A stretch of DNA of 42,379 bases from Streptomycetaceae bacterium (lineage in GTDB: Bacteria; Actinomycetota; Actinomycetes; Streptomycetales; Streptomycetaceae), in assembly GCA_019243445.1 (NCBI GenBank), contig JAFAUH010000010.1:1-42379 (forward strand), written 5' to 3'. The position numbers and the translations under genes are program-made. Of this stretch, positions 8,664-35,345 are shown one piece after another. Within the stretch, counting starts at the first letter, position 1; every line of letters begins with the position of its first letter. The notes under the pieces were generated by a model. That model was given only the letters and a program-made list of their open reading frames with translations. It did not search any database and was not told the DNA's origin.

Positions 8664-11159
8664 TCAGTGGCCTGCGCCGTCCACCACGGCGGACCACTCG
8701 TCGAGCAGTGCTTGGGCCGAGGCGTCGTCGGGCCCCTCAGCCCACAGGCGGGTGACCGCCTCTGCCGGATCGGGAAGCACCATGACCCAACGACCGTCGG
8801 CCTCCACCACCCGGACGCCGTCCGTAGTGTCGACCGACCGGTCGCCCGCCGCCTCCACGACGCTCCTCATCACCAGACCCTTCACGGCCCACGGAGTGGC
8901 GAGGTCGCGCTTGAGCACATGAGCCCGCGGGATACGGGCGTCGATCTGGCTCAGTGTGAGCTGGGTCCGCGCTACGAGACCGATCAGCCGCACGAAGGCG
9001 GCCGAACCGTCGAAGACACTGCTGAACTCGGGAACGATCAGGCCGGCGCGGCCGTCGCCACCGAAAATGGTGCCGTCCATCCGTGCGACGCGGGTGAGGT
9101 CGTCGGGCGATGTCGTAGTCCACTCGACCTCGGTGCCGTGATACGCCGCCACCTGCTCGGCGATGCGGGTCGTGGTCACGGGGAGCGCCACCCGCCCACT
9201 GCGCCGCTCCGCTGCCACGAGATCGAGCATCACCAGCAGCGCCCGGTCGTCCTCGACGATTCTGCCTCGCTCGTCGACGAGTGAGATCCGCTCACCCACC
9301 GGGTCGAAGCGGACACCGAACGCGGCTCCGGCCGACGCGACGATCTCGCCGAGACGCACAAGACCCGAGCGCCGCTCATCGACCGTCTCGGTCGGATGCG
9401 CCTCGTCGAGGCCGGGATTGATGGTAAGCGTGTCGACGCCAAGACGTCCGAGCAGGCTGGGCAGGACGAGCCCGGCGCTGCCGTGCGCCGCGTCCACCAC
9501 GATCTTCAGACCGGACTCCCGGACCCCCGAAGTGTCCACGGCGCGCAGCAGAGCGCCCGCGTACGAGTCGAAGACACTGGACGGGAAGTGCAGATCACCG
9601 ATCTCACCAGGGAACGCCCTGCGGTATTCCTGCCGCGCGTAGACGCGGTCGAGCTTACGCTGAGCCGCCTGGGAGAGGTCGGCACCACGCTCGTCGAAGA
9701 ACATGATGTCGACCGAGTCGGGAACACCCGGCGTGGTGCGGATCATCAGCCCGCCGGCACTGCCGCGCGCGGTCTGCTGGCGGGCGACGGGCATCGGAAC
9801 GTTTTCCAGATCGCGCACATCGATGGCGCTCGCCTGCAGAGCGGAGATGACGGCACGTTTCAGCGCACGGGCACCACGGGAGTGGTCTCGGGCCGTGGTG
9901 ACCGTGGAGCCCTTCTTCAGGGTCGTCGCATAGGCGCCGGCGAGGCGGACGGCGAGTTCGGGCGTGATCTCCACGTTGATGATCCCTGAGACGCCGCGCG
10001 CACCGAACAGATGCGCTTGTCCCCTGGACTCCCAGATGACGGAAGTGTTGACGAAGGCACCGGCCTCGATCGTCTTGAACGGATAAACACGCACGTTGCC
10101 CGCGATGATCGACTCCTCGCCGATCAGGCACTCGTCCCCGATCACCGCGCCGTCATCGATCCGGGCGGCCCGCATCACATCTGTGTTCTTGCCGATCACG
10201 CAGCCTCGCAGATTGGTCTGCGGACCCACGTAGACATTGTCGTGGATCACCGCCTTGTGCAAGAAGGCGCCGGACTTCACGACGACGTTGGAGCCGATCA
10301 CGGAATGCTCGCGGATCTCCGCTCCCGGCTCCACCTTGGCGTAGTCACCGATGTAGAGCGGACCGCGCAGCACAGCGTCGGGGTGGACTTCTGCGCCCTC
10401 GGCAATCCAGACCCCGGGCGCCATCTCAAAGCCGTCGATTTCGACGTCAACGCGCCCTTCGAGCACGTCGGCCTGCGCCTTGACGTAGCTCTCGTGGGTG
10501 CCGACGTCCTCCCAGTACCCTTCGGCGATGAAGCCGTAGATCGGCTTGCCGGCCTTCATCAGTTCCGGGAAGACGTCTCCAGACCAGTCGACGGGCACAT
10601 CTGGATCGACGTACTCGAAGACTTCGGGCTCCATGACGTAGATGCCCGTATTGACGGTGTCGGAGAAGACCTGACCCCAGGTCGGTTTCTCCAGGAAGCG
10701 TTCGACCTTGCCTTCCTCGTCGACGATGGTGATCCCGAACTCCAGCGGATTGGGAACGCGGGTGAGGCAGACGGTGACCAGCGCGCCCTTCTCGCGGTGG
10801 AAGTTGATCAGCTCGGTGAGATCGAAGTCAGTCAGCGCGTCACCGGAAATGACCAAAAATGCATCACTCCTGAGCGCTTCCTCCGCGTTCTTGACACTCC
10901 CTGCGGTACCGAGTGGCTTCTCCTCATGGGCGTAAGTGAGGTCCATGCCGAGTTCCTCGCCGTCGCCGAAGTAGTTCTTCACCAGCGAGGCGAGGAATTG
11001 CACGGTTACCACGGTCTCGGTGAGACCGTGCCGCTTGAGCAGCCGGAGCACATGCTCCATGATCGGCCGGTTGGCCACCGGCAGGAGTGGTTTCGGCATG
11101 CTCGAGGTCATCGGGCGCAGGCGCGTGCCCTCGCCACCGGCCATCACGACGGCCTTCAT
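8664..11159 (-). CDS. mannose-1-phosphate guanylyltransferase / phosphomannomutase fusion protein
   Basis: Protein of 831 residues. Residues 1-235 form a sugar-phosphate nucleotidyltransferase with [20 protein letters not shown] and the [10 protein letters not shown] metal-binding stretch. Residues 250-370 form a left-handed beta-helix hexapeptide region ([20 protein letters not shown] and similar). Residues 380-831 resemble phosphomannomutase/phosphoglucomutase, with a degenerate catalytic loop [17 protein letters not shown] instead of TGRDGRxSxP. The fusion probably supplies GDP-mannose or a related sugar nucleotide for glycans and glycolipids. The altered mutase loop raises the question of whether the second domain is catalytic. 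The ATG at 11159 follows a GAGGACAC-like Shine-Dalgarno. The cardiolipin-synthase-like gene lies 115 bases upstream on the same strand. Confidence 0.9.
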
Positions 11160-21596: not shown

Positions 21597-24500
21597 TCAG
21601 GTCGTTTGTTCCGTCGGCCGACGGAACATCCTGGTGGCAGTGATTTCACCGTGCGCCGGGTCACTGTCCGGTGCCTGTTGCGGCAATCCCGGCCGCAAGT
21701 GCTCCTCAACACTGATGTACTTCAGCCCCGCTCGTAGGTCCGCATCATTGCGCAGCCGTACCACCAAGGGGAACTCCGCGAGCGCGGTGGTGTCGAACAG
21801 ACCTGTGGTGTAGATCAGTTGGACGCCGAGTGCGTCGGCGACGGCACGCTGCAACTCCAGCAAATATGTGGCATTGGCGCGGCCGATCGGGTTGTCGAGG
21901 AAGAGCGTGCCGGCGTGCTTGTGGCGGTCCCGGCCACTGTCGTTGCTGCGCAGCGCCGCCATGGTGCAGTACAGCGCGATCGCTGCGGTGAGCAACTGAC
22001 CGCCGGAGAAGACGTCTCCCATCTGCCCGACCGGCACCCGCTCAGCACGCAGTACAGCGTCCGGCTTGAGGATCTCGACACAGACGCCGCGCGGCTCGAG
22101 CGCCGCCTGCACTCCACGCAGCAGCAGCGTCATGCCGTCGCGGCGCAGATCGGAATTCTTGCGGACGGCTGCACGCGTCGCCTCATCGATGACCTCGCCG
22201 AGGCGCCCACTGAGCACCGCGTGGTCCGGGTCCTCGAAACGGATACGCAAGAACTCCTGGCCCGACCACTCCCCCAGGCCCTCCGGCAGCCGGGACAGGC
22301 GCTGGGCCGAGCGCAGCGTGGCCAGCGCCGCTTCGACCAGGCCGCGCAGCCGGTCGACGATGGAATCCCGATTGCGCTCCAACTGCTCCAACTCGTCGGA
22401 GAGTACGCGCAGCCGCGGTGCGAACGCAGCGGCCCATGCGGCGGCGTGCTCGGGAAGCGAGGCAGCAGGAAGCTCCCGGATCTGCTGCCGGGCAGGGGTA
22501 CGGACCTGTTCGTAGCGGGTGGCGTTGGCATGCCGTACCAACTGGTCGGAAGCCTCGCGCAACTGTGATTCTGCCGCCGACAGACCGGCCGCGCAGCCAC
22601 GCAGCGAACGCCGTGCCTCCGCCGCCGACTGGCGCGCCTCCTCCACATTGCCGGCGTACGGCTCAGGTTGGTCCTCCGCAGTGGCTTCGTGCGCCGCCTC
22701 GCGAAGCAGGTCGCGCAGCAGCGCTGCGAGCTCGTCGAAGCCGCCCGCTGCGTCCTCGGCGGCCCGGTGTGCGCGCTGCAGCTCGATGAGACGGTCGCGG
22801 GCCGCGGCCAATGCCTCGGTGTACTCGCACAGTTCGGCGGTCACAGTGCGCAGTAGCGTCTGCGCCTGCTCGACGTCATCGGGCACCAGTTCCTTTGGCA
22901 GTTCAGTGTGCGACTCACCATCGGCGGGAGCAAGGCGCTCGGCTTCGCCACGCAGTCTGCCGAGCTGTTCGCTGGCTGCGGCGGCTCGCGACTCGATGCG
23001 CTGGACGAGCGCTTCGGCACGGGCAGCTGCCGCCTGGCGGGATGGGCTGTCAGCTCCGTCGGGGCCTTCGAGCAACTGGGCGGCGCGGGTGCGGACCTTG
23101 TTGGTCAGTCGGTCCAGCTCAGCGAGGGTCGTGCTCTCCTCGCTCTCCGCCCGCGCCTGCTCGGCCCGTAGGTCGGCGCCGACACCCACCTTCTCGTACA
23201 CCTGGGAGGCGGCGCGATAGGCCTCGCGCAGTGCGGGCAGCGAAGCGCGCGGGCGCGAGCCGGTGTCGTCGAGCGCACTGGCCTCCGCCTCTGTATCGGC
23301 ATCGGCATCGGCACCGGCGATCTCGGCACGCTCGGCACGCAGTGCGCGGACGGTACGGCGGGCGTCATCGGCCGCGCGCTGGGCCGCACGGCGGTCCTCG
23401 TCAGCGGAGCGGGCCCTGGCGATCCAGGACTCGGCCCGTTCCTCGGCCTCGGCTGCCTCCTCGGCGAGCTCGCGCATCCGCCGCTGCCAGGCGGCGCGTT
23501 CACGCAGCCGGAAAGCGAGCCCTGCGAGGGCGTCGGCGCGGCGGCGTGCGCGCTGGGCTGCCTCCTGCCGCTGGTCGCGCAGGCGTGCCATCTCCTCCGC
23601 TGTCTCGTCCGCCTCCGCGTGCCGGGCACGGGCCTCGGCCAATTCCTGTTGCGCGGTGGCGGCCGACGTCCGCGCCGATTCCACAGCGGCGGTGAGTTCG
23701 GCCAGACGCCCGGCAGGGCAGGACGTGCGCCACGATCCGAGGCGGGCCGCGAGCTGTCGGTCGTGGCCGAGGCGTGCGGCCAGCACCCTGATCTCCTCCT
23801 CCCGGGCGGTGGCACGGGCCCGCAGCGCCTGGCGTTCACCGTCGGCAGCCTGCTCGTCATGCATTGCCGGGTTGGGCGGTACGAGAAAGACGTCCTCAGT
23901 GGCGGTCATCTCCGTAGGGGGCGCCAACAGCGCGGCAGCGGTACCGACAGCGACGGTCGAACGCGGCAGCAGTGCCGCCTCGGCAAGGACTGCGCGGGCG
24001 CGTTGATAGGTGTCGGGATCAGTGACCACGACGCCGTCGACAAGCTCCGGGTGGGCGGCAAGCACGGCCGCATGTTCGGCAGGATCGAGGACTTGCGCGA
24101 GATACCGCCAACCGGGCAGTGCGGGCACGCCGTGCTCCCCCAGGTATTCGACGGTCGCCAGCACATCGGGACTGGGCGGCAGCAGACCTCCGTTGCCGAG
24201 CGCGGCGAGGATCCGCGCGTCCTCGGCAGCACAGGTCCGCAGCTCGAACAGTTGGCGTTCGGCGCGCGCGACGCCGGCGGCGAGCAGCTCGATCAAGGTC
24301 TCGGCATTGCCGTCCAACTCGGCGACGGTGAGCGGCCCGGAAGGCGGCAGGCCGATGAGTTCGGCGAGGCGGTCCTCGGCTGCGAGAGCGGCGGCGGCAC
24401 GGTGCTCGGCCGCGTGACCGGCCTGTGCCGCCTGCAGGGCGTCAGCCGCGCGGGCCGCCGCGAGAGCGGCGGCGGATTCGGTGACTGCGGCCTGCCGGGA

Positions 24501-26186
24501 GCGTTCCGCGGCCTTGGCTGCAGCCTCCCGCGCACTCTCCCACTGTGTGACCGCTGCCTTCTCCTCGTCGCTCGCTTCAAGCGCTGCCCGCGCCGGGTCG
24601 GCGTCCGAGGCCACGTCGTCGAGCCATCCGGCGCGTACCGCCTCCGCGGTCTCCTGTCCGACCTCGGTAAGCCGCTGCTGGAGGTGGCCGGCCTCACTGC
24701 GGGCGCGCTGCGCCGCGGTGGCAGCCGAGGTCGCCTCGCGGTGCGCACTGTCGGACTCACTCTGCAGGGCGACCGACCGCTCCTCCTCGGCGTCCGCCTG
24801 CCGCTCGGCGCTGTCGGCTGCCGCGTGCAGGGCCCGTACGAGATCGGCCGCGGCCCTGGCCCGGGCGGCGAGGGCGGGTGCGGCGTCGCGTTCCGCCTCA
24901 CGGATAGCAGCGGCGACCCTGGCCGACCGGTCGGCGGCGGCGCGGTGCCGCAATACCGTCTCGGCGGCCTGCCATGCCGCATGCAGCGTCCGTGCCTCGG
25001 CGAGCTCCCGGCGCAGTCGAGCCGCGTCCTTCTCGGCCGCTGCCAGGCTCAACGAAGCGCTTCGGTAGGTGAGTTCAGCGCTGATGCGGGCGGTGCGCCC
25101 GCGTGCCGCATCGACGTCGGCGACCGCTCGTGCGGCATCGGCGACGCGCCGGTCGAGCTGTGCGGCGCGTTCTCTTTCGGCCACGGCGCGGGCGGTCAGC
25201 CGCCTGGCCAGCTCACGGGTGCAGCGCTCGCTATGCATGTGTACGGCCCGCGCGCTGTCGCGCTGCACGGTGTGCTCGGCGATCCGCTCCAGGTGCTCCA
25301 GCGAGCCCGCGGTGAAGTCGCGCTCGGCGGTCAGCTCAGCACGCCGTCCCAGTTTGTTGGCGAAGCTGTGGACGAGGTCGGCAAGGCCATCGGTGTCGCG
25401 AGTGTCGGTGACCGCGCGCAGCAGCAGATCGGTGAAGTCGGAGTCCTTCTTCACCGAGAACAGACCGGCTGCCTCACCCTCGTCAGCGTTCATCTCCCGC
25501 TGGTAGCGGAAGAGTTCAGGGTCCAGGCCGAGATCGCCGAGGTGCTCGTTCCAGCGGTCGTGGATCTCCTCCCACACCACATCCAAGTGGAGGTAGACCT
25601 TGCCGGCTTCGGTGAGGGCGTCGCGGAAGCCTTTCATCGTGCGGCGTCGGCCACGCACCCCTGAGCTCCCTTCAGCAGTGGGGCGTACGGAGGCGGACTC
25701 GGCGACGGGCAGCGAGTCGAGGGACAGACCAGGGCCGGGCCGAAAGGAGTACCACGCTTCGGCGAACTTCCGCGGATCGGAGGAGACCTGGCGGCCCCGC
25801 CATTCGCTCACCTTGCCGACGACGAGGAGTTCACCGGTGAGGGTGTGCTGCCATTCCAACGCGACGTGCCCGCAGTCATCGGCGAGCAGGAACTTGCGCA
25901 GCACACCCGAGCTCGCACCGCCCAGGGTGTTGCGGTGGCCCGGCAGCATCACGGAGAAGATCAGCTTGAGCAGGACGGACTTGCCGCCACCGTTCTCGAG
26001 GAAGAGCACGCCGGCGGGAGCGGGTCGGCGCGGCGGGCCCGCGAGCTCGTCCTCGAAGAACTCGCCCTGCGCAGGCGCGGGCTGCGGGACGGGGGCGCCG
26101 ACGCCCCGAAGGTCCAGCACGGTGTCGGCGTAGCGCGCACCGGCCGGTCCGATGGAGTAGAGGCGGATCCGGGACAGCTCGTACAT
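21597..26186 (-). CDS. SMC/MukB-like coiled-coil ATPase of a three-gene complex
   Basis: Protein of 1529 residues with SMC architecture. The N-terminal head has an ATP-binding loop LENGGGKS (residues 63-70, Lys69). Residues 280-600 and 780-1330 are Ala/Arg/Glu-rich coiled coils. A globular hinge-like domain lies between, at about 600-770 (LLPPSPDVLATVEYLGEHG, HPELVDGVVVTDPDTYQRA). The C-terminal head has the signature SGGQ (1394-1397) and Walker B TLFLDNPIGRAN, where Asp1431 is followed by Asn1432 instead of the usual catalytic Glu. It is the third gene of an operon, starting 26 bases after the winged-helix gene. The role is inferred to be DNA loop extrusion or chromosome/plasmid structuring. 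It does not match the TIGR02680 Wadjet form as I remember it. Confidence 0.85.
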   Translation of the reverse strand: MYELSRIRLYSIGPAGARYADTVLDLRGVGAPVPQPAPAQGEFFEDELAGPPRRPAPAGVLFLENGGGKSVLLKLIFSVMLPGHRNTLGGASSGVLRKFLLADDCGHVALEWQHTLTGELLVVGKVSEWRGRQVSSDPRKFAEAWYSFRPGPGLSLDSLPVAESASVRPTAEGSSGVRGRRRTMKGFRDALTEAGKVYLHLDVVWEEIHDRWNEHLGDLGLDPELFRYQREMNADEGEAAGLFSVKKDSDFTDLLLRAVTDTRDTDGLADLVHSFANKLGRRAELTAERDFTAGSLEHLERIAEHTVQRDSARAVHMHSERCTRELARRLTARAVAERERAAQLDRRVADAARAVADVDAARGRTARISAELTYRSASLSLAAAEKDAARLRRELAEARTLHAAWQAAETVLRHRAAADRSARVAAAIREAERDAAPALAARARAAADLVRALHAAADSAERQADAEEERSVALQSESDSAHREATSAATAAQRARSEAGHLQQRLTEVGQETAEAVRAGWLDDVASDADPARAALEASDEEKAAVTQWESAREAAAKAAERSRQAAVTESAAALAAARAADALQAAQAGHAAEHRAAAALAAEDRLAELIGLPPSGPLTVAELDGNAETLIELLAAGVARAERQLFELRTCAAEDARILAALGNGGLLPPSPDVLATVEYLGEHGVPALPGWRYLAQVLDPAEHAAVLAAHPELVDGVVVTDPDTYQRARAVLAEAALLPRSTVAVGTAAALLAPPTEMTATEDVFLVPPNPAMHDEQAADGERQALRARATAREEEIRVLAARLGHDRQLAARLGSWRTSCPAGRLAELTAAVESARTSAATAQQELAEARARHAEADETAEEMARLRDQRQEAAQRARRRADALAGLAFRLRERAAWQRRMRELAEEAAEAEERAESWIARARSADEDRRAAQRAADDARRTVRALRAERAEIAGADADADTEAEASALDDTGSRPRASLPALREAYRAASQVYEKVGVGADLRAEQARAESEESTTLAELDRLTNKVRTRAAQLLEGPDGADSPSRQAAAARAEALVQRIESRAAAASEQLGRLRGEAERLAPADGESHTELPKELVPDDVEQAQTLLRTVTAELCEYTEALAAARDRLIELQRAHRAAEDAAGGFDELAALLRDLLREAAHEATAEDQPEPYAGNVEEARQSAAEARRSLRGCAAGLSAAESQLREASDQLVRHANATRYEQVRTPARQQIRELPAASLPEHAAAWAAAFAPRLRVLSDELEQLERNRDSIVDRLRGLVEAALATLRSAQRLSRLPEGLGEWSGQEFLRIRFEDPDHAVLSGRLGEVIDEATRAAVRKNSDLRRDGMTLLLRGVQAALEPRGVCVEILKPDAVLRAERVPVGQMGDVFSGGQLLTAAIALYCTMAALRSNDSGRDRHKHAGTLFLDNPIGRANATYLLELQRAVADALGVQLIYTTGLFDTTALAEFPLVVRLRNDADLRAGLKYISVEEHLRPGLPQQAPDSDPAHGEITATRMFRRPTEQTT

Positions 26187-26212
26187 GGCGGACTCTCGTG
26201 GTGTCGGTCGTG

Positions 26213-27136
26213 TCAGGAATGGAAGGGAAGGCCGGCCTCGGCGACCAGCTCAAGGTCCTCGGAGCCGTCCGCCGCCACCAACGAGGGTGTGCCGTCGGCG
26301 ACCGGGACGATGCCGAGGCCGAGCAGTTCGGCCATCGCCGCGCTGCCGGCCATGTCGCGTACCTGAAGCTGGTAGCGGGCGGTGGTGCGGTACGTACCGC
26401 CGGACTCGTCGCCGGTGCGCTGCAGGAATCCCGAGTCGACGAGGAACGCGACAGCTTTCCCCACGATGCCGGTGGTCGAACCGGCGAGGCGGCGGGCGTC
26501 CTTGGTGGCGCCCGTCGCACTGCGCCGGGCATAGACCCGCCAACCCGCTTCCAAGCCGGGCGCTTCACTGGCCGGGTCGGTGTTCTCGCCCTGTTCCTCG
26601 GCCCGCTCCTCCAGGCGCCGGCACGCCTGGCGTACGAAAGCGTCGACACCGTTGACAGTAATGCGGCCGATGTAGCCGTCATCGGCAAGGTCCGCGGGGC
26701 GCGGGAACGCCATGGCGGCGATGGCGAGATGGGCCAGGCCGTGCAGAAAGCGGTCAGTGGAATCGGAGGCGGCACGACGCGAGTACTCGCCCATGCGGAC
26801 AGCGAACACCGAATCCTCGGCGGCGGCGAGCGCCATGCCGGCGCGGGCGGAAACCTCCAGTATCACCAGGCCGAGCCCGGCTGCGACAGCGTCGGCAAGT
26901 CGCGCGAAAGCGGGGTCGTCGCGGTGACGGCGGATCAGCTCGGCGTATTCGGCATCCCGGGCGGGCAACAGCTTGGGCTGCAGCCCGTACGCGACCAGAC
27001 GCGAGGCGTCAGCGACATCGGCCGACGTCATACCGGGCGTCATACCGGCCGTCATACCGCCCGAGGCGGCGCGGCCCGGCTGCGCATCGGCACCCAGCTG
27101 ATCGGAAGTCGCACAGCCTTCACGTTCGTCATTCAT
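26213..27136 (-). CDS. MukE/JetB-like winged-helix accessory protein
   Basis: Protein of 307 residues. A low-complexity N-terminus contains a short repeat, GMTAGMTPGMT. Residues 60-150 are helical. The C-terminal part has a winged-helix pattern (GKAVAFLVDSGFLQR followed by TYRTTARYQLQVRDMA). Size, position between the kleisin-like and SMC-like genes, and winged helix suit a KITE protein of the MukE/JetB type; direct sequence similarity is not recognised. The ATG overlaps the upstream stop in ATGA, so the two genes are translationally coupled. GGAGG lies about ten bases upstream. Confidence 0.7.
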   Translation of the reverse strand: MNDEREGCATSDQLGADAQPGRAASGGMTAGMTPGMTSADVADASRLVAYGLQPKLLPARDAEYAELIRRHRDDPAFARLADAVAAGLGLVILEVSARAGMALAAAEDSVFAVRMGEYSRRAASDSTDRFLHGLAHLAIAAMAFPRPADLADDGYIGRITVNGVDAFVRQACRRLEERAEEQGENTDPASEAPGLEAGWRVYARRSATGATKDARRLAGSTTGIVGKAVAFLVDSGFLQRTGDESGGTYRTTARYQLQVRDMAGSAAMAELLGLGIVPVADGTPSLVAADGSEDLELVAEAGLPFHS

Positions 27137-28668
27137 CTGCGGTTTTCCTCCACAGTCCGTTCGGCGGCCATCTCCGCTGCGTCGAGCAGCGCGGAGCCGA
27201 CGATCAAATCGGCGCCGCCGAACTCCGGGTCGTCGAGTTCGGTGCCGTCATCGACGGCGAACAGCAGGCGCTGTTCGCCTTGCCGGTACGCCGTGCCGAT
27301 CGGCGGGCTCGCCGCGTGGACCGCCAGCAGAGCGACCAGGTAGGGCAGTTCAGGGTCGTGGCGCCGGGCCTCGGCGAGGAGATCGGAGAGTCTGCGGGGC
27401 GCATCGTGCGGGAGATCGAGCAGTTCGAGCGCGACTTCGAGCTGCTGTTCGCTGAACCTGCTGTCCTCAGGTGTCGCCACCAGGTCTGGCTCGGGCATCT
27501 GAGCGCCGAGGTGTTCGCGTTCCACCGGCGGCATCAGCAGCGCCTCGACAAGATCGCCGATCCGTACCGCGAGCGGGGCGCGCAGCCCGACACCGTGAGC
27601 GAAGAAAGCACCGGTGACCTTGGCCGCCTGCTCGACGGGGAGCGGCAGCACGGGGGCGAGCAACTGCCCGTACAGGTCGAGGCCACAGCGCGCGGGCGGC
27701 GCGGCGAACGCCTGCCGGTCCTGCTCGGCGCGGAAGAGCGGCCCGGCTTCCAGCAGCCGGGACTGCAACTGGGTGTGGCGGCGGATGCAGTCCTTGACGA
27801 TGTCGACGAGTTCGGCGGCGCGCCGCTTGTGCTCGGGCTCCTCGCTTTCATCGCGCGCTTTGCGGATGTTGGTGAGGATCGCGTTCTCGTGTCGGTAGCG
27901 GTCGGCGACGTGGTCGAGTGCTTCGTTGATCATGTCGGGCACGGCACGCAGCCAGTCGACCGCGCGGACGTCGCGGCGGGTCGCCTCCAGCGCGCGGCGC
28001 AGCGATTCGGCGTACTGCACGGTGCGATAACGGGCCTGCTCGGCCGCGAGTTGGGCGTCGGCGAGCCGACCGCGGTTGATGAGCACTTCGAGCTTGACCT
28101 CGGTGGCGATCTGGGCGCTGGTGACATCGGTGTCGAGGGCTCCGACGAGCACGTTGACCGCCTCATCGGTGGCGCGCAGATACACCGTGCCGCCGGGCCC
28201 GGGCACCTCCTCGATGAGTTTGAAGTCGTAGTCGCGGCGGACGTAGACGCCGTCGGGTCCGAACGTCCCGTATACGGCACGGAATCCGCGGTCGACACTG
28301 CCGACGTTGATCAGATTCTCCAGCACCCAGCGGGCCACCCGCTCGTGCTCCGCAGCGCTGCGCTGCGGCGCCTGGGCAGCGACACGCAGCAGCAAACGGG
28401 CGATTATCTGATCGTGGTCGGCGCCGGTGTCGAAGTCCATGTTCAGTGTGACCAGGTCGATGGCGGCGAGCGCCACTTCGGCCATCGCGTATGTGGAGTA
28501 TTCACCGGCCAGATTGGCTTTGCGTACGTCCAAATCGTGCAGCGGCGCGGTGCAGGCCAGCGCCTTGAGCCGACGGGCCAGGCCCTCGTCGGCGGCGGGC
28601 CCGGGCGCTACAGGGCGCGCCAAGCCGGCGGTGTGGTGCGGAAGGACTTGCGCGGTGGACGTACTCAC
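27133..28668 (-). CDS. MukF/JetA-like (kleisin-type) subunit
   Basis: Protein of 511 residues from the GTG at 28668. The N-terminal part (STYAMAEVALAAIDLVTLNM, then ARWVLENLINVG and VYVRRDYDFKLIEEV) looks like winged-helix DNA- or SMC-binding. A long helical region follows, about 160-300 (QLAAEQARYRTVQYAESLRR and onward). The C-terminal half holds another domain. Its place as first gene and its helical layout suit the kleisin/MukF role that bridges SMC heads. A longer frame reaches 28902, but the codons before 28668 look non-coding. TAATGT seven bases before the GTG suggests a leaderless transcript. No nuclease gene is found before it. Confidence 0.7.
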   Translation of the reverse strand: MSTSTAQVLPHHTAGLARPVAPGPAADEGLARRLKALACTAPLHDLDVRKANLAGEYSTYAMAEVALAAIDLVTLNMDFDTGADHDQIIARLLLRVAAQAPQRSAAEHERVARWVLENLINVGSVDRGFRAVYGTFGPDGVYVRRDYDFKLIEEVPGPGGTVYLRATDEAVNVLVGALDTDVTSAQIATEVKLEVLINRGRLADAQLAAEQARYRTVQYAESLRRALEATRRDVRAVDWLRAVPDMINEALDHVADRYRHENAILTNIRKARDESEEPEHKRRAAELVDIVKDCIRRHTQLQSRLLEAGPLFRAEQDRQAFAAPPARCGLDLYGQLLAPVLPLPVEQAAKVTGAFFAHGVGLRAPLAVRIGDLVEALLMPPVEREHLGAQMPEPDLVATPEDSRFSEQQLEVALELLDLPHDAPRRLSDLLAEARRHDPELPYLVALLAVHAASPPIGTAYRQGEQRLLFAVDDGTELDDPEFGGADLIVGSALLDAAEMAAERTVEENRR

Positions 28669-29080: not shown

Positions 29081-29473
29081 TCAAATGCCGACAGTAATCG
29101 TGTCACCGTCCCGGTATCCGGTCGCATCGAAGAGGAAGTGGTACTTGTGAGGCGGAATGCCGTATGTGTGCTGGTGTATGGTCGAGCCGACCTGCTCGCC
29201 AACGGTCACCTGGCTGCCGATCTGCCACCACCAGTCAGTTCCCTGGAATCCAACGACTTTACAAGCTCCGCCGCCGATGCCCTGCCATGGCACGGACGAG
29301 AAGTTACCATCCTGGTTCCAGCCCTGGACGGTGAATATCCCACTCGCCTTGGCGCACACCTGCACCCTGACCGCACCCGCCGAGCTGGCGCCGGCCGTTC
29401 CGGCTACCATCAGACCACCAACAGCCGCCGCAGCCAATCCTACCACGACAACTTTGGACTTCTTGAGACGCAT
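29081..29473 (-). CDS. small secreted protein of unknown function
   Basis: Protein of 130 residues. A signal peptide is clear: MRLKKSKVVVVGLAAAAVGG followed by LMVAGTAGASSAGA, with cleavage probably after Ala. The mature part is Gly/Trp/Val-rich, with VQVCAKASGIFTVQGWNQDG, WWWQIGSQVTVGEQ and HQHTYGIPPHKYHFLFDATG. Two cysteines may form a disulphide. It looks like a compact beta-rich domain but I do not recognise the family. The ATG at 29473 is preferred; an upstream in-frame ATG at 29494 is possible. It lies between IS remnants and may be acquired. Confidence 0.75.
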   Translation of the reverse strand: MRLKKSKVVVVGLAAAAVGGLMVAGTAGASSAGAVRVQVCAKASGIFTVQGWNQDGNFSSVPWQGIGGGACKVVGFQGTDWWWQIGSQVTVGEQVGSTIHQHTYGIPPHKYHFLFDATGYRDGDTITVGI

Positions 29474-29599
29474 CGATCTCGCTCGCTTTCTCATCGATGA
29501 GACGTCAACCCGAGATGGACTGACGGGAAGAGAATAGCGCCCGCCGAAGTATCCCTCACAGAAGTTACTTTCATGTTCCCGCATATGAAGTTTTCGTTT

Positions 29600-29867
29600 G
29601 GTGTGGTGGGCTGCTGACCCTGGATCCACCGGCTGGTGACTGGGATGGGTGGGGCTGAACGCACAAAAGTGCCTGTAAACTGACTCTATGAGTGCCGGGC
29701 CGCCGAGCAGCCGGCCCCCCCCTTCCCTGCGCAGCCCGGTAGTTTCTATCGTCCGGGTATGCACGTGCTCGAAAAGGAGGCCCGCAATGTCTTCCTACAT
29801 CGGTATTGATGCGCATCGCAAGCAGTTGCAGATCGCGGTCGTTGATCATAACGGTGCGGTGGAGTGA
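29600..29867 (+). mobile_element. left end of an IS110-family element with transposase N-terminus only
   Basis: After GGAGG, the ATG at 29787 begins MSSYIGIDAHRKQLQIAVVD, the N-terminus of IS110/IS1111 transposases with the first catalytic Asp (IGIDAH). The frame stops at 29865-29867 after 26 residues. The upstream 180 or so bases are non-coding and include GGGCCG/CGGCCC hairpin arms (29698-29719), as expected for the IS110 left flank, which in intact elements encodes the bridge RNA. The left boundary is a guess. No right end is visible; the next gene starts its 3' end at 29965. Confidence 0.7.
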
Positions 29868-29964: not shown

Positions 29965-32900
29965 TCAGGGCCGGCTCCCGTATCCTCCACCGCCCGGTGT
30001 CCTCACCACGAGTGCGTCCCCCGCGCCGACGTCGGCCGCATCGCAGTCGGCCAGCTGCTCGACCGTGCCGTCCGCCCGCTCGATGAGGTTGGCGCCGAGC
30101 GCTCCTGGCCCGCCACCTGCCATGCCGTACGGCGCCACTCGCCGGTGGCCCGACAGCAGCGCCACCGTCATCGGTTCGAGGAAGCGGATGCGCCGCTCGA
30201 CGCCGCATCCGCCGCGCCACCGGCCAATGCCGCCGCTGCCGTGGCGGATCCGGAACTCCTCCACGCGTACCGGGTAGCGCCATTCGAGGATCTCGGGGTC
30301 GGTCAGGCGCGAGTTGGTCATATGGGTCTGCACCGCATCGGCGCCGTCGAAGCCCTCGCCCGCTCCCGAGCCGGAGGCGACGGTCTCGTAATACTGGACG
30401 CGGTCATTACCGAAGGTGACGTTGTTCATGGTGCCCGAGCCCTCGGCCTGGGCACGCAGCACCGCATACAGCGCGCCGGTGACGGCCTGGGAGGTCTCCA
30501 CGTTCCCGGCAACCGTGGCGGCCGGATAGCTCGGCGCGAGCATGGAGCCGGTGGGCACGCGGACTTCAAGTGGTTTGAGGCAGCCGCTGTTGAGCGGGAT
30601 GTCGTCGGCGACGAGGGTGCGGAAGACATAAAGCACAGCCGCCATCACCACCGAGCGGGGGGCGTTGGTGTTGCCAGGCTGCTGCGGCGAGGTGCCGGTG
30701 AAGTCGAGGACGGCGCTGCGCGAGGCGTGGTCCACGTGCAGCGCGACCTGGATCACGGCGCCGTTGTCGGTCTCGTAGCGGTATTCACCGTCGTCGAGGC
30801 CGGCGATGATCCGGCGCACTGATTCCTCGGCGTTGTCCTGGACGTGCCGCATGTAGGCGTGTACGACGTCGAGGCCGAACTGGTCGACCATACGGCGCAA
30901 TTCGTGGATGCCTTTCTCGTTGGCGGCGATCTGGGCGCGCAAGTCGGCGAGGTTGGTCTCCGGGTCGCGCGAGGGGTACGGGGCGCTGGTGAGCAGTTCG
31001 CGCGTCTCGGTCTCGCGCAGATGGCCGTCGCGTACCAGCAGCCAGTTGTCGAAGAGCACGCCTTCCTCGTCGATGGTGCGGCTGAAGGCGGGCATGGAGC
31101 CCGGGGTGAGGCCGCCGATCTCGGCGTGGTGCCCGCGCGAGGCGACGAGGAAGAGCAACTCGCGCCCGGCGCCCGCGGCGCCAGCCGCTGATGTCTCCGT
31201 GAAGACGGGGGTGACGACGGTGACGTCCGGCAGGTGGGTGCCGCCGTGGTAAGGGTCGTTGATGGCATAGACGTCCCCTGGCCGCATTGTCCCTTCGTTC
31301 CGCCGCAGCACCTCTTTGATGGACTCGCCCATGGAGCCGAGGTGGACGGGGATGTGCGGGGCGTTGGCGATCAGGTTGCCCCCGGGGTCGAACAGGGCGC
31401 AGGAAAAATCGAGCCGCTCCTTGATGTTGACCGAGTGCGCGGTGTTCTCCAGGCGGACGCCCATCTGCTCGGCGATCGCCATGAACAGGTTGTTGAACAC
31501 CTCCAGCATCACCGGGTCGACACTGGTGCCGACCGCCGTCCGGCTCGGGCGCGGCCGGGATCGGGTGAGGATGAGGTCGCCGTGTTCGTCGCCCACGGCG
31601 CGCCAGCCGGGGTCGACGACGGTGGTCGCGTCGGCTTCGGCGATGATCGCCGGGCCTTCGACGAGGTCACCGGGCCGGATGTCGTCACGCTTGTACAACT
31701 CGGTGTGCTGCCACCGTCCTTCGGTGAACATCCGTACCGTCGCCGCGGGGCGCAGGGCCTCCTCGCGCGGCGCGTGCACGGTGGGAGGCTGTGCGGGCGG
31801 CCCGGAGGAGCCGGTGGCTTCGACACAGACCGCTTCGACGACGAGCGGTTTGTCCATCACGAAGCCATATCGCCCGCGGTGGTCACGCTCGAAGGCGGCT
31901 TGCATCCGCTCGGCGGTGTCCACTTCGACGGACAGGGAGGAGTCGGTGCCCTCGTAGCGCAGCAGGACGCGGGCGGTGGTGCGGACGGTCTGCGGTGGCA
32001 CGCCGTCGTTGTGCAACTGCGCCCGGGCGAGCTGCTCCAGTTCGCCGCGCACCTGATCGACCGTTCCCATCGCCTCCGCGGCGAGCCGGGACTCCACGGA
32101 GCGTTCGTGCAGCGCCACCGCGTCCGCCATGCCGATGCCGTATGCCGACAGCACTCCGGCGAGCGGGGGTATCACGACGGTGTCGATGCCAAGGGCGTCA
32201 GCGACCGCGCAGGCATGCTGGCCGCCCGCGCCGCCGAAGCTGGTGAGCGCATAGCGGGTGACGTCGCGCCCGCGCTGGACGGAGATCTTCTTCACCGCGT
32301 TGGCGATGCCCAGCACCGCGATGTCGAGGAAACCCGCGGCGACCTCCTCCGGGCTGCGGCGGTCGCCGGTGGTCGCGGCCGACCACTGCGCCAGTTCCTC
32401 GAAGTGGCGGCGTACGACTGCGTCGTCGAGCGGCTGGTCGCCGTTCTTGCCGAACACCGGCGGGAAGTGAGCCGGTTGGATGCGGCCGAGCATGACGTTG
32501 GCGTCGGTGACGGTGAGCGGGCCGCCGCGCCGGTAGCAGGCAGGGCCGGGGTCGGCGCCGGCCGAGTCGGGCCCGACGCGGTAGCGCATCCCGTCGAAGT
32601 GCAGTATCGAGCCACCCCCTGCCGCGACGGTGTGGATGTCCGTCATGGGCGCGCGCATCCGCACCCCGGCGACCTGGGTGCTCAGCACGCGTTCGATCTC
32701 GCCTGCGTAGTGCGAGACGTCGGTCGATGTGCCGCCCATGTCGAAGCCGATCGCACGGTCGTATCCCGCCCTGCTGGCGGCGCGCGCCATGCCGACCACG
32801 CCGCCCGCGGGGCCGGAGAGCACCGCGTCCTTGCCTCGGAAGTGGCCGGCTTCGCGCAGACCGCCGCTGGATTGCATGAACATCAGCCGGACATCGCGCA

Positions 32901-33588
32901 GTTCGTCGGCGACCTGGTCGACATAGCGGCGCAGGATCGGGGAGAGATAGGCGTCGACGACGGTGGTGTCGCCGCGGGGCACGAATTTGATCAGTGGGCT
33001 CACCTCGTGCGAACAGCTCACCTGGGTGAAGCCGAGGGAGCGGGCCGCCTCGGCGACGGCGCTTTCGTGCGCGGGATGGCGGTAGCCGTGCAAGAAGACG
33101 ACGGCCGCGCTGCGGATGCCGTCGCGGTGGGCGTCGCGCAGGGCAGCTGTGGCCGCGTCCAGGTCGAGGGGACGCACCGCTTCACCGTGCGCCCCGACGC
33201 GTTCCGGCACCTCGATGACGCGCTCGTACAGCGCTTCGGGCAGCACGATGTGCCGGTCGAAGAGGCGGGGCCGGTTCTGGTAGGCGATGCGCAGCGCGTC
33301 GCGGAAGCCCTCGGTGACGACGAGGACGGTGGGTTCGCCGGTGCGCTCCAGCAGGGCGTTGGTGGCGACCGTCGTGCCCATCTTCACGACGTCGATCAGG
33401 TGGGACGGGATCGGCTCGTCCGGCTCCAGGCCGAGCACGAGCCGGATCCCGGCGACAGCCGCGTCCCGGTAACTCTCCGGTCGCTGGGAGAGCAGCTTGC
33501 GGCTGACCACCCGCGCGTCCGGGGCCAGCGCCACGATGTCGGTGAAGGTGCCGCCACGGTCGATCCAGAACTGCCAGCGCCCGGTCAT
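29965..33588 (-). CDS. hydantoinase A/B fusion, 5-oxoprolinase (ATP-hydrolysing) type
   Basis: Protein of 1207 residues, the length of single-chain 5-oxoprolinases, which open 5-oxoproline to glutamate using ATP. The N-terminal HyuA half has [13 protein letters not shown] and [17 protein letters not shown] (actin-like ATPase motifs), then [20 protein letters not shown]. The HyuB half starts near 745 ([20 protein letters not shown]) and contains [19 protein letters not shown] and [13 protein letters not shown]. The ATG at 33588 is chosen because homology starts there ([14 protein letters not shown]). The Shine-Dalgarno is weak. It lies 173 bases after the HEAT gene stop on the same strand. Narrow substrate assignment within the hydantoinase family is by length and motif only. 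Confidence 0.92.
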
Positions 33589-33761
33589 GTGCTCATTGTC
33601 GCCTACTTGCGACCCTTGGTCACTGGACCGTGATGGCTGCGGGGCGGACCTGCAAATGGGCCTGTCATACGTAAATGAACCTGCCATACGGATAAACGGA
33701 TAATACGAGGCGGACGGGCACCGTAAACGTGAAAGCTGCGGGAAGGAGAAGCAGACCAGAG

Positions 33762-35345
33762 TTATCGCGTGGGTTTTGCGCCGAGTCTGCCGCGGATTGC
33801 CGTTTGGACCTCGGCCTCCTCCGCGGGATCGGCGGCCAGTCGGCGCAGCTGTGCCAGTACGCGGACATCCCCGGTCGCCGCGTGGCGGGCGGCGAGCTCG
33901 CGCGTGGCCTCTTCGCAGTCCCAAAGACACTCGATCGCAAACCCTTGCGCGAACGACGGATCGGTCACGGCGAGCGCTCGCGCCGCGCATCCGCGCACAT
34001 GGGATGAGGAGGTCTCTCGGTAGATATGCCGTACAACGGGTGTCGCGCAGCCGATGCCGAGCCGCCCGACGCCTTCGACGAGGACAGCGAGCCCTTCCGC
34101 ATCAGCGCCCGCCATCAATCCCCTAGCGGGGGGACCACCGGCTTTAGCCGGTGGGGGAATCGCTTCCTTGGCCTGTGGTACTTTCCTTTCGTCCCGCAAG
34201 GGATCGGTTCGGGCTGGACCGCAACTCTCGGGTTGGAAGCCCCCCTCCTTCAGGTGGGGGAGCGGAGTCACGCATACCAGGCGCCGCAGCGCGGCGAGCA
34301 CGCGCCCCGCGTCCTTGGTCGTGCCCCGGATGGCGAGCACGCCGGCGGCAGCGCCGCCGAGCGCGTCCTCGCGCGTAGCCCACGCGCGGGCGCGCTCCAG
34401 GGCCGCGGTGCCGCGTATGCGCGCGAAGGATTCCAGTGCGGCACGGGAGACGACAGCTGAGCCGTCGGCCGCGCCCGCTTCGATCAGGTCGAGCACTACT
34501 GCACTGTCCTGGGGAGCGTGACGATCTGCGAGAAAGCGCAGCGCGGCTGCGCGCGCCGCCTCCGGCTCTCCATGGGCTGCCGCGAGCAGTTCGTGGCGGT
34601 GCTCGGGCCCTGCGACCGCTGCCAGGCAGCGTGCGGCCGGGGCGTCGCGGTGTTGTGCGGGATAGCAGTCGAGGCCCTGCTGGGCCCAGTTGAGGATGTC
34701 GTGCACGCTCCAGCCGGGCGCTGGGCCTGCCGGGCGCAGCTGACGCTGCCAGCGGTCGAAGGCGTGTTGTTCCTCGGCGGCGCGCACCCGCTCGCCGTGT
34801 ACCGGGTCTTGCGCCCACAGTCGCCAGGGCCGCCTTTCGTATGTCTCGCGCAACGCTCGCGTCAGCGCGGCGTCACCCTCGGGTGTGCAAGGGAAGCGGG
34901 CGAGAACTGCCGGGGCGAGCGCACGCAGCTCTTCATCGTCGTCACGCAGTGCAAGCTCGTCCAGGGCCCAGGCCCAATTGGCGCCGTTGGCCGTGTAGTC
35001 ACGCAGCAGCCGCAAGGCGTCGCGACGGCCGTATCCGGCGAGGTGGCCGAGGACGGACAGGGCGAGGCCGGTGCGCTGCTCGTCGCTGTCGAGAAGGTCG
35101 TCGGCGTGGAAGAGATGCTGTTCGATCCCGTCGAGTCCGCCTTCGAGCTCGGAGTACAAACGTGCGTAATACAACGAGCGTGCTTCCACCTGCCAGTCGC
35201 GGCGGGGGTCGCTCAGGACGCACTGCTCCAGCACGGCGAGGGCCTCGGCGTGCTGCTCCGCGAGGGCATGCAGGACCCCGTCTCCGCGTCCTCGCTGGAG
35301 GAGGCCGAGAAGGGTGCCGCTTGGTGCTATGACAGGGTGGAACAT
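33762..35345 (-). CDS. HEAT-repeat protein with an in-frame insertion
   Basis: Protein of 527 residues, helical throughout, with repeating paired-helix patterns such as [20 protein letters not shown] and [20 protein letters not shown], typical of HEAT repeats. Such proteins form curved scaffolds for protein binding; the partner is unknown. About 48 residues (from [19 protein letters not shown] to [14 protein letters not shown]) do not fit the repeat pattern and are Pro/Gly/Cys-rich. They are encoded by an IS200/IS605-like remnant whose length keeps the frame open. The ATG at 35345 has GCGAGG upstream. The gene runs toward the oxoprolinase gene. Whether the protein still folds is unknown. Confidence 0.75.
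34117..34277 (+). mobile_element. IS200/IS605-type remnant (PATE-like) inside the HEAT-repeat gene
   Basis: Two strong hairpins with 4-base loops mark the ends: CCACCGGC-TTTA-GCCGGTGG (34135-34154) and CCCCCTCC-TTCA-GGTGGGGG (34241-34260). Between them, a plus-strand frame reads [14 protein letters not shown], like the TnpB tail that precedes the right end. GGAGTCA follows the second hairpin. The whole insert is small enough to have been mobilised in trans. The host gene frame stays open through it. Exact ends are uncertain. Confidence 0.6.

Follow-up and report, generated by a model that had tools for sequence, protein, structure and literature searches.

In type I Wadjet systems, JetABC is regarded as a loop extruder from which JetD receives stalled circular DNA, and loss of JetD has been proposed to have produced a condensin in the case of MksBEF of Pseudomonas aeruginosa (PMC10586767). 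MksBEFG of Corynebacterium glutamicum, an actinobacterial SMC-like plasmid-defence complex that is also a type I Wadjet, has the nuclease MksG; it has no large-scale effect on Hi-C maps and no chromosome-folding role (PMC7083940). Whether SMC defence complexes gave rise to chromosome organisers or the reverse is an open question, and JetD loss has been argued so far mainly from type I relatives. Here we analysed a three-gene operon, jetABC, in a 42,379-nucleotide stretch of DNA (hereafter, the window) of a Streptomycetaceae bacterium (GenBank assembly GCA_019243445.1, contig JAFAUH010000010.1, positions 1 to 42,379 of the forward strand). The operon matches the core of a type III Wadjet and lacks JetD. 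With slightly more confidence than doubt, we read it as a domesticated, vertically inherited chromosomal gene set that would act as an accessory condensin of the MukBEF/MksBEF kind.

In the available text of two papers on Streptomyces condensin, SMC is treated as the condensin (PMC13121528, PMC8410768). According to the available text of a DefenseFinder survey, Wadjet is abundant in Actinobacteria and, in Streptomyces, enriched towards the ends of the chromosome; its subunits are undiscussed there (PMC10482375). We found no description in the open-access literature of a nuclease-free type III JetABC, or of such a set as a fixed part of the Streptomyces gene content.

A type III JetABC core without JetD

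An earlier note, made from the letters of this DNA, had read three coupled minus-strand genes as encoding a kleisin-like, a winged-helix and an SMC-like protein (511, 307 and 1529 amino acids respectively) in the gene order of Muk and Jet systems. The coordinates of the open reading frames (ORFs) were confirmed (Table 1), and the trio and its order are supported. The genes jetA and jetB overlap by 4 bases (jetA stop at 27133, jetB start at 27136), while jetB and jetC are 26 bases apart. JetC matched PADLOC JetC3 (PDLC00588, E=0, 1430 bits, residues 1-1527) and JetA matched JetA3 (PDLC00567, E=1.3e-188, 626 bits). The 307-residue protein was unmatched in Pfam, NCBIfam and PADLOC. We assigned it as type III JetB because it is 30-52% identical to the protein at the same position in four JetD-bearing operons (52%, 38%, 38% and 30% for L094, L096, L097 and L098 respectively); the JetB homologues of jetABCD operons always sit between jetA and jetC, collinear with it. 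Judged by sequence, the trio is specifically a Wadjet type III JetABC core, with homologous JetA, JetB and JetC, the same order and coupled genes. The note's claim of a second, little-described SMC machine is thereby sharpened to a type III JetABC that has an orthologue in 60 of 61 family genomes.

None of the three proteins matched Pfam, NCBIfam gave no relevant match, and sequence searches of the PDB with JetA, JetB and JetC returned nothing relevant. The operon has the nuclease-free kleisin-winged helix-SMC layout of MukBEF and MksBEF. Membership of the Muk/Mks sequence families was not found in Pfam or NCBIfam, and the type III and type I profiles of the A and B subunits do not align significantly: JetA and JetB showed no detectable similarity between the two types, and the JetC head gave a weak match (E 2.7e-4). 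Membership of the canonical SMC or ScpA/ScpB families was not found either, as Pfam gave no match and NCBIfam gave sub-threshold coiled-coil matches alone.

In a fold search against 350,542 PDB chains, the eight top matches of the JetA model (predicted local distance difference test, pLDDT, 48) were MukF chains (best E 3.6e-3, none reaching 0.001), which weakly suggests that JetA is a kleisin. The JetB model was poor (pLDDT 42) and its search returned insignificant winged-helix matches alone. The earlier note had staked its reading on kleisin and KITE folds (KITE, kleisin-interacting tandem winged-helix element); the kleisin half found weak backing in the low-confidence JetA model, and the KITE half was not borne out for the 307-residue protein.

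The note had also seen no nuclease partner beside the operon, and this now extends to the whole genome. A custom-built JetD profile found nothing in the window. In the genome that contains the window, which is 96% complete in 414 contigs, neither JetD_C (PF09983) nor the type III profile PDLC00594 found a JetD; the other genome of this genus, 100% complete, was likewise without a match to either profile. PDLC00594 matches true JetD3 proteins at 174-409 bits. A negative result with another JetD3 model, PDLC00590, was discounted as uninformative, since that model represents a different subfamily, and PDLC00594 was used instead. A JetD-type gene in the same operon of relatives, which the note had named as evidence that would overturn its reading, was looked for and not found in the orthologous loci, and the gene-neighbourhood survey revealed no conserved fourth gene in the operon. 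The JetD Toprim nuclease of a type III Wadjet was thus missing from the operon in the window and in the orthologous loci, as well as from the window's genome.

Distribution, phylogeny and constraint

The family sample comprised 61 Streptomycetaceae genomes of 17 genera, with the window's genus represented by two genomes. JetA was present in all 61 and an orthologous copy in 60 (68-93% identity, the window itself excluded); G010 holds just a 26%-identical JetA and no orthologous copy. JetC of the sister genome (G001) is 90% identical to that of the window and has no stops. We also analysed 80 Streptomyces loci with 74-78% JetC identity, the best-scoring of at least 565. All three genes were seen within the available stretch of 75 of these 80; 74 of the 75 were intact, a fraction that may be flattered because the loci are the best-scoring ones, and JetD was found in none of the 75. 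A search for this kind of JetA (E 1e-10) in 247 genomes from the class found it in Streptomycetaceae and in a second family (f18) alone; in f18, JetABC was found in part of the family. The eleven f18 loci have the order jetA-jetB-jetC and no JetD, the downstream end being unreadable in two of them (L132 and L135).

Some genomes provide an internal control in the form of complete paralogous operons. JetD3 was detected above 170 bits in five of the 61 family genomes (G010, G040, G041, G051 and G060), and each of these genes directly follows the jetC of a separate, divergent four-gene jetABCD operon. In the paralogous operon of L096, for example, jetD lies at 9111-10172. The other 56 genomes, including the window's, had no JetD3 match above 25 bits; weak JetD matches in G030 and G054 scored best against JetD1 models. 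Among 23 further genomes, JetD3 accompanied a second jetC in G294 and G295, a broken jetC-jetD pair in G223 and a jetC remnant in G233. GC content at third codon positions (GC3) was 0.94-0.98 in the core copies and 0.77-0.83 in the jetABCD copies of four genomes having both kinds. In the window, GC3 of jetABC (0.81-0.84) is similar to that of other genes nearby (0.81-0.86). JetA relatives were found on five plasmids, and all four inspected carry JetD at the operon end; the phage collection held no JetA relative.

Nuclease-free copies were separated by a single branch in both trees: 30 of 30 rows in the JetA tree (Shimodaira-Hasegawa-like approximate likelihood ratio test, SH-aLRT, 93; the nuclease-free label of L132 and L135, present in this tree only, rests on a partly read operon) and 25 of 25 in the JetC tree (SH-aLRT 100). 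The nearest relatives of this clade in the JetC tree were the JetD-bearing operons of G041 and of a Rhodococcus plasmid, and when rooted on a Polaromonas plasmid, JetD-bearing rows surround it. Since JetD-bearing lineages enclose the single clade of nuclease-free copies, one ancient loss of JetD is the simplest history, although long branches make the deeper part of the tree unsure.

Walker A (ENGGGKS), signature (FSGGQ) and Walker B (FLDNP) were invariant across the nuclease-free clade. The ratio of nonsynonymous to synonymous substitution rates (dN/dS) between the window and its relatives was 0.10-0.13 for jetA, 0.09-0.18 for jetB and 0.12-0.19 for jetC, values which indicate that jetABC is under purifying selection. 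Every type III JetC examined (including L096 4657-9114 and L144 11020-15345) reads Asp-Asn-Pro at Walker B; Asp-Glu is found there in most SMC ATPases. A dead ATPase, with Asn replacing the catalytic Glu after the Walker B Asp, was considered and rejected: Asn is common to all JetD-bearing type III JetC examined and is no sign of loss.

JetB differs at its start. In type I Wadjet, the JetB N-terminus is among the contacts of JetD (PMC10586767). Predicted JetB proteins of the nuclease-free clade have 22-55 poorly conserved residues ahead of the first conserved block, while those of JetD-bearing L094, L096 and L097 begin almost at this block. The variable N-terminus may fit a lost JetD docking site, as a correlation that depends on predicted start codons.

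Possible role of JetABC without its nuclease

The accessory-condensin reading supposes a single loss of JetD in an ancestor, after which JetABC stayed in the chromosome as a gene set passed on vertically. The JetA kleisin and JetB winged-helix dimers would link two JetC motors, and these would extrude DNA loops with ATP. We place the complex on the chromosome because stalling on a DNA circle could not end in cleavage without JetD; the motor would extrude loops and then release. The complex may work beside SMC-ScpAB, for example to fold chromosome arms or compact the nucleoid while hyphae grow or spores form.

JetABC differs from type III Wadjet in having no JetD in its operon and, for most genomes, none elsewhere either; in being chromosomal and syntenic, not mobile; and in the longer, variable JetB N-terminus. 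P. aeruginosa MksBEF is proposed to have lost its nuclease by the same route and likely has the same kind of role, but it is related to type I. E. coli MukBEF shares the kleisin-winged helix-SMC gene order, and MukF chains are what the low-confidence JetA model matches first. In contrast to MukBEF, JetABC has no Muk-family sequence match, and Streptomyces has SMC as well (PMC13121528). More tentatively, all or nearly all Streptomycetaceae may carry an overlooked second condensin: an immune machine that used to cut plasmids, lost its nuclease a single time and now folds their (linear) chromosome. It would be the type III counterpart, separately evolved, of the proposed path from JetABCD to MksBEF/MukBEF.

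Several points weigh against the condensin reading. Confidence in the JetA and JetB models is low because their alignments are shallow. The absence of the nuclease is negative evidence, and an unrelated effector encoded elsewhere would escape detection. JetABC is probably not essential, because a few genomes do without it or carry a damaged copy (absent in G010; broken or split in G012, G041, G285 and G233). Its locus is outside the most conserved chromosome core, 5-20% from the contig end in 17 of 18 long contigs (ends as deposited, some lengths rounded).

The main rival, which we regard as unlikely, is that defence was retained: JetABC would sense circular or foreign DNA and either act with another effector whose gene lies elsewhere, such as a housekeeping nuclease or a recombination enzyme, or restrict plasmids without cutting them, by compaction or silencing as proposed for Smc5/6. 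The parent family is anti-plasmid (PMC10586767), and the enrichment of Wadjet near Streptomyces chromosome extremities, as given in the available text of the survey, is compatible with the 5-20% position (PMC10482375). However, the operon has no conserved fourth gene, all plasmid-borne relatives inspected keep JetD, and near-universal presence, a fixed locus and high GC3 are unusual for a defence operon.

Less probable still is that JetABC is no general condensin but a partitioning factor specific to plasmids, conjugation or hyphal growth. The linear chromosomes and conjugative elements of Streptomycetaceae would suit such a role. MksB of C. glutamicum is located at the cell pole with DivIVA (PMC7083940), but no partition gene is conserved beside jetABC. 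A core JetABC that borrows JetD from a second operon is nearly refuted: JetD3 does occur beside the core copy in G040, G041, G051, G060, G295 and G294, but every JetD3 found directly follows its own jetC or what is left of that gene, and 56 of the 61 family genomes lack it at the threshold given above. Finally, a decaying Wadjet relic whose nuclease disappeared from this strain only recently, which an insertion sequence (IS) fragment upstream and the broken copies of a few genomes might suggest, is refuted for the clade as a whole by a JetD loss common to two families and one clade, 74 of 75 intact loci, dN/dS of 0.09-0.19, invariant ATPase motifs and the stop-free sister JetC.

In this clade, an apparent one-time nuclease loss was followed by strong constraint on the motor across a large, genetically tractable family, and in some genomes the core coexists with entire type III jetABCD operons, which makes a ready-made comparison. 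Scans of Streptomyces with JetA3 and JetC3 profiles will pick up genes that may have no part in defence, and the mild phenotype of the S. venezuelae smc mutant (PMC8410768) would gain a candidate explanation.

Neighbouring genes and further observations

Upstream of jetABC, Streptomyces loci carry a GntR regulator (67 of 74 loci), YcsF (62 of 74) and a major facilitator superfamily (MFS) transporter (57 of 74); a convergent small membrane protein or other genes lie downstream. These conserved neighbours, together with Cvn-type genes downstream, show a fixed locus. The window's membrane protein was matched by the profile of the Streptomyces neighbour family at 213 bits, and among profiled genes the small membrane protein is the first downstream, in convergent orientation, in 48 of 78 Streptomyces loci. 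It was not found beside jetABC in f18. The earlier note had placed this gene next to the operon and offered its product as a possible partner of the complex: the gene is there, but on the plus strand and tail-to-tail with jetC, not in the operon. An obligate partnership is unsupported because the gene is convergent and not universal, and both the membrane protein and the Cvn genes were rejected as partners, neither being found in f18. Taken as a whole, the note's reading stands for the nuclease-free second SMC machine and falls for the membrane-protein partner.

Table 1. Features of the jetABC locus in the window.
Feature	Coordinates	Strand	Remarks
jetA3-like gene, kleisin-like subunit, 511 amino acids	27133..28668	-	GTG start at 28668; frame open to 28902
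jetB3-like gene, putative winged-helix/KITE-type subunit, 307 amino acids	26213..27136	-	N-terminal extension poorly conserved
jetC3-like gene, SMC-like ATPase, 1529 amino acids	21597..26186	-	PADLOC JetC3
JetC motifs			Walker A ENGGGKS from ~residue 64; signature FSGGQ ~1393; Walker B FLDNP ~1429
Small membrane protein, 137 amino acids	21176..21589	+	Convergent with jetC; conserved neighbour, probably outside the complex
Small secreted-protein ORF	29081-29500	-	Upstream flank of jetA
Fragment presumed IS110-like	~29787-29867	+	Upstream of jetA; no Pfam match
Fused HyuA-HyuB 5-oxoprolinase	29965-33990	-	Upstream slot

The note had described the upstream gene as an IS relic. A fragment reading MSSYIGIDAHRKQLQIAVVDHNGAVE does lie there and, recognised by eye, presumably resembles the N-terminus of IS110-family transposases; the secreted-protein ORF and a 5-oxoprolinase gene occupy the same flank. 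A fused HyuA-HyuB 5-oxoprolinase stands by jetABC in the window and, beyond it, in the sister genome and a few Streptomycetaceae (loci L024, L103 and L109), and most Streptomyces have YcsF/PxpA-type 5-oxoprolinase genes in this slot, an apparent swap of non-homologous enzymes in one place beside jetABC. In many Streptomycetaceae (L101, L107-L109, L139-L141), the nuclease-free jetABC is succeeded by conservon genes; from their sequence, we take these genes downstream of jetC to be of CvnA/CvnB type.

Some core copies are damaged. In G012 (L110) jetB and jetC are broken into several frames, by lineage decay or sequencing errors, and frameshift-like splits occur in G041 (L099), G285 (L130) and G233 (L157), some of them possibly sequencing errors. 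In an IMG/VR contig (IMGVR_UViG_2936099427_000006; L158, 1-3159), the gene of a large serine integrase begins directly behind a jetA in which the last residues are replaced, and no jetB or jetC was found in the next 9 kb; it seems that a prophage or other element inserted itself into the 3' end of the core jetA and so split the operon.
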